A DNA stretch of 64,000 nt from Herbidospora yilanensis (GTDB taxonomy: Bacteria > Actinomycetota > Actinomycetes > Streptosporangiales > Streptosporangiaceae). Below the pieces are notes generated by a model that saw nothing but the letters and a program-made list of their open reading frames with translations, did no database searches and was not told the DNA's origin. Shown piece after piece: positions 58,157-59,772 of this stretch; positions within the stretch are counted from its first letter, which is position 1; every line of letters starts with the position of its first letter. Location of the stretch: the NCBI RefSeq assembly GCF_001570565.1, contig NZ_BBXE01000019.1, forward strand, positions 62,001 to 126,000. The letters are read 5' to 3'. The position numbers were made by a program, and so were the translations under genes.

Positions 58157-58753
58157 ATGACGCAAGAAGATGGGCAGCTGGACGGCCTCGTACGCAAACG
58201 CATCCGCGCCCTGCGCGTCGCGCAGGGCTGGTCACTGGAGGAACTGGCCACCCGCGCCAACCTCAGCCAGTCGTCACTGAGCCGCATCGAGAACGGTCAG
58301 CGCCGCCTCGCCCTCGACCAGCTCGTCGTCCTCGCCCGCGCCCTCGACACCACACTCGACCAGCTCGTGGAGAACGCCGCCGACGACGTCGTCATCAGCC
58401 CGATGATCGACGGCGCGCACGGCCTGATGCGCTGGCCGATCAAGGGTGATCCCGGCATGAGCGTCGTGCGTCAGCGGATGACCGAACCGCCGCCGGACAA
58501 CCCGGCCCGGATGCGCGCCCACCCCGGCCGCGAATGGCTCGTCGTGCTCTCGGGCATCGCGATTCTCCTGCTCGGCCACCGGCGGTTCAGGATCGAGACC
58601 AACCAGGCCGCGGAGTTCCCCACGATGATGCCGCACGCGATCGGCGCCGAGGGCGGGCCGTGCGAGATCATGGGCATCTTCGACCGCGACGCCCGCCGCG
58701 GCCACCGGCGCGACGATGACGAGTGCGACGGCGCGCCGGGGTCCTGCGAGTAG
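58157..58753 (+). CDS. XRE-family regulator with cupin-like domain
   Basis: A 198-aa regulator. Helix-turn-helix at residues about 12-65 (LEELATRANLSQSSLSRIE), followed by a small beta-rich cupin domain (about 100-180; HPGREWLVVLSGIAILLLG) that would bind a ligand. It probably represses the adjacent exporter. It starts at ATG 58157 from a leaderless promoter. The frame stays open after the stop for another 400 nt. Confidence 0.85.
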   Translation: MTQEDGQLDGLVRKRIRALRVAQGWSLEELATRANLSQSSLSRIENGQRRLALDQLVVLARALDTTLDQLVENAADDVVISPMIDGAHGLMRWPIKGDPGMSVVRQRMTEPPPDNPARMRAHPGREWLVVLSGIAILLLGHRRFRIETNQAAEFPTMMPHAIGAEGGPCEIMGIFDRDARRGHRRDDDECDGAPGSCE

Positions 58754-58948
58754 CCGCTCCCGCCGGCGTCGAATGCCGCGACCGACGGCTGCCACGCCGA
58801 ACACGTACCCCATCGCGGCGCCGCCGGGTTCACCGTCGAGGAGGAGCGGACCATCACCCGCGGCGAGGCCATCGGCCGCTGCGCCCACGGCAGCCTGCGG
58901 CGCATCCGCGGCCGGCACCCGGTCCTCGCGAGCCGACCGCCGGCCGAG
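58754..58948 (+). pseudogene. Possible gene remnant after the XRE regulator
   Basis: This stretch is open in the frame of the XRE gene, after its TAG, and has protein-like composition from about 58830 (GFTVEEERTITRGEAIGRC). No start codon or ribosome site precedes it. It may be the tail of a lost gene, for example of a methyltransferase type, or chance. I cannot name a family. Confidence 0.3.
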
Positions 58949-59031
58949 GTGGGGGAGATGCGCAGATCTTTTTCCGCGAGAGGGTCAGACGAGGCCGCGA
59001 GTAAAGGCGACAGAAAAGGTCTGGAGATAGG
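58949..59031. other. Intergenic DNA without recognisable gene
   Basis: Between the remnant and the three-hairpin element I see no gene. On the minus strand TTTT (59017-59014) lies 15 nt beyond the last hairpin and may help end that transcript. Confidence 0.4.
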
Positions 59032-59139
59032 GCGACGCCGGGTGGTTACGGGGGCAAACCACCCGGCGTCGCTTCATCGGCGTTCCGACGGGGGCCCGGA
59101 ACGCCGGCACCAGCGCTCCGACGGGGGACCAGAGCGCTT
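59032..59139 (-). ncRNA. Candidate small RNA: three hairpins with a common C-rich loop
   Basis: On the minus strand the stems are 9 bp with one mismatch (59138-59130 with 59120-59112), 10 bp (59106-59097 with 59087-59078) and 16 bp, perfect (59072-59057 with 59047-59032). All three loops have nine nt, GTCCCCCGT, GGCCCCCGT and TGCCCCCGT, while the stems are unrelated. A -10 TACAGT (59151-59146) and -35 TTGACG (59177-59172, 20-nt spacing) point to transcription from about 59139. C-rich loops recall the actinobacterial 6C RNA. The strand is inferred. Confidence 0.55.
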
Positions 59140-59184
59140 GGCTAAACTGTACACCTACCACCCTTAGGATGCGTCAAGACTTAG

Positions 59185-59502
59185 TCACGACCCGATCTCG
59201 CGTCGATGCCGTGGTATCTCGTTTTGGTTAGCTTCATCCATGTCCTGAAGTGGGGGAAGGTCCTTTCCCCGCTCGTTGGCACCGATCACGGCAAGGTACG
59301 GCAAAAGCACCGCGCCGGCGATGAAGAGCCCCCGCAGCCACAGCGGCGCACCGGGCCACGCCACGGCCAGGATGAGGCACACGACGCGGATCGACATCTT
59401 GATCACATAGCTGATCTCGCGTTTGCGGATGTCGGCCGACAGGGACGGCTGCGCGTCGGTCACCTGGTGAACGGTCGTCTTCCGCCGTTGAAACAGCTTC
59501 AC
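59185..59502 (-). CDS. DUF3099 membrane protein
   Basis: A 105-aa protein with two transmembrane segments (about residues 37-53 and 56-75; VCLILAVAWPGAPLWLRGLF) and a polar C-terminus. The function is unknown. It starts at GTG 59502, 6 nt after TAGGGT, so the mRNA is probably leaderless. It is divergent from dodecin; the RNA candidate begins just beyond its stop. Confidence 0.85.
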   Translation of the reverse strand: MKLFQRRKTTVHQVTDAQPSLSADIRKREISYVIKMSIRVVCLILAVAWPGAPLWLRGLFIAGAVLLPYLAVIGANERGKDLPPLQDMDEANQNEIPRHRREIGS

Positions 59503-59556
59503 GATGCAACCCTACGCCCGGGGCATATGATCGTTTCGCGACGACAGGGAGGCACC

Positions 59557-59772
59557 ATGTCTGACCGCACCTACCGGGTGACCGAGATCGTGGGAACGTC
59601 GGGAGAGTCCGTCGACCAGGCGATTCGCAACGGGATCAGGCGGGCGTCGCAGACGCTGCGCCATCTCGACTGGTTCGAGGTGACGGAGGTCCGCGGCCAC
59701 ATCCAGGACGGCGAGGTCGCCCACTTCCAGGTGGGCATGAAGGTCGGTTTCCGCCTGGAAGACTCCGAATAG
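59557..59772 (+). CDS. Dodecin, flavin-storage protein
   Basis: A 71-aa protein that forms hollow dodecamers holding flavin or coenzyme A. The flavin-stacking Trp is in HLDWFEVTEV and the Gln in HFQVGMKVGF. AGGGAGG precedes ATG 59557 and TATGAT (59525-59530) is a good -10. A strong terminator follows. Confidence 0.95.
   Translation: MSDRTYRVTEIVGTSGESVDQAIRNGIRRASQTLRHLDWFEVTEVRGHIQDGEVAHFQVGMKVGFRLEDSE

Follow-up and report, generated by a model that had tools for sequence, protein, structure and literature searches.

The minus strand of the 64-kb stretch of Herbidospora yilanensis DNA analyzed here (the window) carries a member of a conserved RNA family, in which consecutive hairpins present a fixed, C-rich loop; the family, its strand, and its fixed loops are real. 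We consider it most probable, at roughly 0.65, that this is a stand-alone small RNA (sRNA) gene whose C-rich loops would pair with G-rich sites in mRNAs, in the manner of the 6C/B11 RNA of actinobacteria or of sX13 of Xanthomonas, and within this explanation we infer transcription, action in trans, mRNA pairing, and the direction of regulation.

Three hairpins are present at 59032-59138 of the window, all confirmed from the sequence and the inverted-repeat listing. Read on the minus strand, hairpin A, the first of the RNA (59112..59138), has nine pairs, including one U-G, around the loop GUCCCCCGU at 59121-59129; hairpin B (59078..59106) has 10 bp around the loop GGCCCCCGU at 59088-59096; and hairpin C (59032..59072), a probable terminator, has 16 bp around the loop UGCCCCCGU at 59048-59056. 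The corresponding plus-strand loops of A, B, and C are ACGGGGGAC, ACGGGGGCC, and ACGGGGGCA, respectively, and each of the three minus-strand loops contains five C, with CCCCCGU as the loop core. A first-pass annotation of this DNA had described stems of 16, 10, and 9 bp sharing one loop, and these are indeed present, with the third stem reaching nine pairs on the minus strand only, where one of them is U-G; the plus strand has a mismatched C-A in its place (for this stem, the inverted-repeat listing holds the seven outer pairs alone). The same annotation took all of the stems to be unrelated, which does not hold for hairpins A and B, since they are 80% alike over 30 nt. This likeness fits a tandem duplication of hairpin A, of which B is the probable copy.

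The heptamer ACGGGGG occurs eight times in the window, against 27.7 copies expected from dinucleotide shuffles, i.e., about 3.5 times more rarely than expected, and three of the eight copies are the loops of hairpins A to C, within 80 bp. Since so large a share of the window's copies sits in three adjacent loops, the hairpin loops exceed chance. The minus strand folds at -75.6 kcal/mol (z = -6.85) and the plus strand with z = -4.12; for each strand, 0 of 200 shuffles were as stable. A blunter hairpin count against shuffles used a nine-pair threshold, which misses hairpin A; it returned zero triples even in the real window, and 2 hairpins with a G5 or C5 loop in the window versus 1.45 in shuffles, and so lends no support when taken alone. 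A G-quadruplex on the plus strand was set aside because only three G5 tracts are found there, and a coding RNA was judged unlikely because indels of one or two bases between the hairpins would break the frame.

We then compared the element across relatives, from which two covariance models were built, as had been proposed at the outset: R1, from 15 sequences, and R2, from 19 sequences of a two-hairpin form. Eighty named loci were selected by a letter pattern of hairpin C, from at least 118 matching stretches, and 78 of them (L088 and L153 were left out) were scored with R1. Three-hairpin matches of more than 100 bits were obtained for 71, which represent 52 distinct sequences, while the remaining 7 scored 44 to 65 bits. 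Two-hairpin rows were obtained via R1, a letter pattern, or the named-locus listing, and alignment A5 leaves out the relatives without a C run in the first hairpin (L025, L066, L075, and L077) as well as some repeats. In these four relatives, hairpin C retains both its C run and GUG.

Across 53 distinct three-hairpin rows (among the matches listed), 99.9% of 1837 cells were paired, and both-side changes were found in 10 of 35 pairs. None of 500 shuffles, which leave the kinship among rows in place, reached these pairing and both-side figures, and 14 of 500 reached the real number of further pair types; when the structure was slid along the same rows, only 35-52% of cells were paired. The 19 two-hairpin rows were 99.0% paired, with both-side changes in 12 of 21 pairs and 0/500 shuffles reaching the real value on every measure. 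Read on the minus strand, the three-hairpin rows contain 97 G-U cells versus 0 A-C cells, and the two-hairpin rows 31 versus 0. Since the G-U cells would be mismatches if the plus strand were read, the RNA is the minus strand, with its C-rich loops, as initially proposed.

The loop motif CCCCCG[U/C] occurs three times in 53/53 three-hairpin rows (among the matches listed); in the two-hairpin rows, it occurs twice in 14/19 and once in 5/19. In Nocardiopsis, hairpin B has other stem letters, with pairing kept around the same loop core. Over the 53 rows, both-side changes affect five of nine pairs in stem A, three of 10 in B, and two of 16 in C, and 14 of the 16 pairs of stem C and 5 of the 10 of stem B never vary. 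The invariance of hairpin C is partly built in, since the named loci were picked by its pattern; A and B are free of this bias. The stems are thus conserved too, contrary to the idea that selection acts on the loops alone, and the conservation of stem C is higher than loop pairing alone would require. As for the origin of the third hairpin, in the two-hairpin form the first hairpin is similar to A as well as to B, and the simplest history would be an ancestor with one A-type hairpin plus C, in which a tandem copy of A arose in the Streptosporangiales.

Conserved stems around a loop repeated two or three times could also be expected of an RNA that binds or titrates a protein, with the C-rich loops catching an RNA-binding protein (or Rho) instead of mRNAs, and RNA sponges built from several hairpins with a recurring loop are known. 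However, the C-rich-loop RNAs B11 and sX13 work through pairing, according to the published accounts cited below, and we regard protein titration as distinctly unlikely.

On the minus strand of the window, the order is DUF3099 gene, stop, TTGACG, TACAGT, and hairpins A, B, and C. The -35-like TTGACG (59172..59177) and the -10-like TACAGT (59146..59151), with TG immediately 5' of the latter, are both on the minus strand and separated by a 20-nt spacer. Among the matches listed, TTGA[C/T] is found in 50/50 relatives with upstream sequence, and the full pattern TTGA[C/T]-N21-TANNNT in 49/50, versus 5/10000 mononucleotide-shuffled rows, where the pattern was picked after inspecting the relatives' rows, the rows are mutually related, and 2 of the 52 distinct relatives were left out because their upstream sequence is too short. 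These counts agree with the original suggestion of a promoter-like pair just past the DUF3099 stop from which transcription would begin at the first hairpin. Promoters of the main sigma factor do not usually have a spacer of 20 nt, which could imply an activator; a simple sigma-70 scan with spacers of 16-18 nt found no promoter upstream of hairpin A. In several two-hairpin relatives, GTGNCATACT or a similar sequence resembles an extended -10. We also observed a CCY-N2-GGG dyad inside the spacer in 25/50 relatives (among the matches listed), which would suit a spacer-bending activator.

At the other end, a T-rich tail (at least four T in 9 nt) follows hairpin C in 44/52 relatives (among the matches listed), although the window's own tail (CCCTATCT) is weak. 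Judged from the promoter-like signal and the tail, the RNA gene would be ~115 nt long and lie at about 59024..59140 on the minus strand; R1 matches 59025-59144 at 142.9 bits, with the window's row included in the model's own alignment. Beyond hairpin C lies a convergent HTH-cupin gene, followed by an MFS gene. That the DUF3099 and HTH-cupin genes converge at the hairpins, and that so many relatives have the T-rich tail, is what would be seen if the hairpins were stacked terminators of convergent genes and the RNA itself functionless. A terminator does not need a conserved loop, whereas here the loop letters are fixed while the stems change; moreover, a promoter-like signal precedes the hairpins just past the DUF3099 stop, and the element occurs in differing gene contexts. 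We therefore consider stacked terminators very unlikely, including the plain triple terminator raised in the first-pass annotation, although the last hairpin may terminate.

Both covariance models were searched within the window's phylum and recover the RNA across the class Actinomycetes. R1 matched 87/296 genomes of the class, and R2 matched 143/394, from 53 of 137 genera and with one match each, five of the 143 being hairpin C alone. Neither model type found a copy in the other 251/394 class genomes, which means that the class as a whole can do without the function. In a phylum-wide draw, R2 matched 9/198 genomes, all within the same class. R2 also matched 36 of 40 close relatives, i.e., 35/37 members of the window's own family and 1/3 other members of the order, the two own-family misses being assemblies of 99% (G016) and 84% (G035) completeness. 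Carriers among the matches listed include Nonomuraea, Microbispora, Actinomadura, Nocardiopsis, Streptosporangium, and Actinopolymorpha, together with Embleya and Yinghuangia of the Streptomycetaceae. Within the class, the RNA is thus widely distributed, yet by no means present everywhere.

The gene just upstream in the window (59185..59502, minus strand) encodes a small DUF3099 membrane protein of 105 aa (Pfam PF11298, 81 bits), and a protein search found a DUF3099 match in 48/60 related genomes. In close relatives, the hairpins beside DUF3099 are kept nearly letter for letter, and in three class-level relatives a divergent, shorter form lies beside it. A letter pattern placed the element at 24/30 DUF3099 loci and misses some true copies that R2 finds (e.g., in genomes G007 and G022). 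Counted as loci, with some genomes repeated, DUF3099 precedes the RNA in the same orientation at 62 of the 70 named loci for which 900 nt or more of upstream sequence is available and at 66 of all 80 (both among the matches listed), and in two overlapping sets at 18/19 class loci and 33/33 further loci. The eight exceptions among the 70 are all Nocardiopsis (among the matches listed), in which no DUF3099 was found within 1500 nt upstream at 8/8 loci with enough sequence and the RNA is kept. In a group of Streptomyces-like genomes, which probably belong to the genus Streptomyces, judging partly by gene order, the arrangement is TldD-DUF3099-RNA-moaA-symporter-subtilase.

In addition to DUF3099, a gene for a small Cys-rich protein (71-88 aa in five examples) lies no more than 900 nt 3' of the RNA, in the same orientation, at 62/158 loci of a redundant set. 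The protein carries the motif CSAKGC...WNNP...CEEH, is found beside the RNA in many actinobacteria (e.g., L202:11682-11915, plus strand), and in the two examples searched reached the cut-off of neither a Pfam nor an NCBIfam family. In the Streptomyces-like genomes, its gene often begins ~30 nt past hairpin C, on the same strand. With so short a gap, the gene could hardly have a promoter of its own, and, hairpin C being terminator-like, the arrangement would suit a cis-acting 5' leader whose hairpins attenuate or stabilize the Cys-protein mRNA, the free sRNA being a by-product. Against a leader, no such gene lies 3' of the RNA at 96/158 loci; of eight RNA-bearing genomes searched, seven (among them that of the window) gave no match to the Cys-rich protein, although the RNA hardly varies in such relatives; and the minus-strand ORFs that directly follow the RNA in the window all lie antisense to the HTH-cupin gene. 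That the RNA persists without either the DUF3099 or the Cys-protein neighbor speaks for an independent function. As a general explanation, a leader is in our view unlikely; a second, leader role in Streptomyces is possible.

For the stand-alone sRNA gene that we favor, we found no counterpart in Rfam. An Rfam scan of the window, advised along with an RF01066 (6C) search in the first-pass annotation, gave no family at its cut-off at this RNA, and at the loci of 20 relatives no family matched at E up to 2. When E up to 10 was allowed in 58700-59600, nine matches appeared, all far under their cut-offs, and RF01066 was not among them. One of them, the alphaproteobacterial sRNA ar7, aligns to these hairpins at 17.2 bits against a cut-off of 60 (E 0.66), and we take it for a chance resemblance between C-rich loops. 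A literature search found no report of an sRNA linked to DUF3099 or to the SCO1821 neighborhood; it was a search outside supplementary tables, in one of which the RNA may be listed.

Since the general plan, C-rich-loop hairpins of which the last is terminator-like, is shared with 6C, we examined this family more closely. 6C is described as two stem-loops, each with at least six C (PMC8388888). The window has three hairpins with five C each, and the two-hairpin relatives mostly have five or six C. The true 6C of this genome lies elsewhere (contig C45:1372-1447, plus strand; 61.1 bits), with seven C in both loops, and the 6C model matched 24/30 RNA-bearing genomes, 18 of them above cut-off, but never at the element's locus. 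Conversely, R1 run on the genome of the window did not return the 6C locus, even with E up to 10 allowed. With the 6C model unmatched here and a separate 6C locus in the same genomes, membership in 6C is refuted, in line with the initial impression of a 6C-like shape in a non-6C place. A diverged 6C RNA, for which the common plan is the argument, is the least probable of the explanations and deserves hardly any weight; a distant common origin of the two is possible.

Our preferred explanation, an sRNA acting through its loops, draws on RNAs of similar build. Like 6C/B11, the RNA is actinobacterial and consists of stable C-rich-loop hairpins, of which the last is probably a terminator; it differs in its separate locus, its CCCCCGU loops with five C instead of at least six, its three hairpins in the window, and DUF3099 as the usual neighbor. 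In Mycobacterium marinum, the C-rich terminator loop of B11 (6C RNA) is described as the seed (PMC12395582), and for one B11 target in M. abscessus, either loop is stated to suffice (PMC10470900). In the description available of Xanthomonas sX13, three stems carry apical C-rich loops of 4C, 4C, and 5C, and mRNAs carrying GGGG motifs are repressed (PMC3771888). The window RNA likewise has three stems with three C-rich loops, a likeness of architecture by description, while sX13 is proteobacterial and is described as having an unstructured 5' region. C-rich loops have also been described for scr5583 and scr1434, two Streptomyces sRNAs that are conserved and highly expressed (PMC3765725); they carry the names of other neighbor genes, and the comparison with the present RNA is by description alone. 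In S. coelicolor, moaA is given as SCO1821 (PMC4021200), so that, from the DUF3099-RNA-moaA order of a Streptomyces-like genome, the RNA would be expected beside this gene.

In this sRNA mechanism, the RNA would begin at hairpin A, finish after hairpin C, and consist almost entirely of three stable stems presenting CCCCCGU. By analogy with B11 and sX13, the loops would pair with G-rich stretches (the complement being ACGGGGG) at or near the ribosome-binding sites of several mRNAs, close to their start codons, and pairing would lower the translation or stability of these targets. The terminator hairpin C would be a main seed, which fits the retention of its C run in relatives whose first hairpin has lost its own; the same retention suggests, at the level of sequence, that hairpin C may matter most.

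We also counted candidate target sites in the 40 nt before gene starts. In a three-hairpin relative, ACGGGGG was found 2 times before 490 starts against 1.2 expected, with 2 on the antisense strand. In a Streptomyces-like genome with 243 starts, ACGGGGG was found 6 times against 1.0 expected, and the unrelated GAGGGGG 7 times against 1.1, while in an RNA-less genome with 244 starts, GGGGG was found 12 times against 4.5 expected; all of these counts are small, and all starts were crudely predicted by a purpose-made gene finder. Specific support for ACGGGGG as a target site did not emerge from them.

A combined interpretation, which we put forward tentatively and consider doubtful as a whole, is that of a second C-rich-loop regulator beside 6C, with CCCCCGU as its seed. 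It would double as a leader of the Cys-protein gene in Streptomyces-like and other genomes, and it would stand alone, with a third, tandem-duplicated seed hairpin, in the Streptosporangiales, where none of the genomes checked yielded the Cys gene.

Together, these results describe an RNA family that is common in Streptomyces relatives and in the Streptosporangiales and for which the loci tested gave no match to a family of Rfam 15; a new family could be seeded from the alignments and covariance models obtained here. Where one GC-rich genome holds two C-rich-loop RNAs that differ in their seeds, target discrimination becomes testable, and the step from two loops to three offers a natural experiment on the number of seeds.
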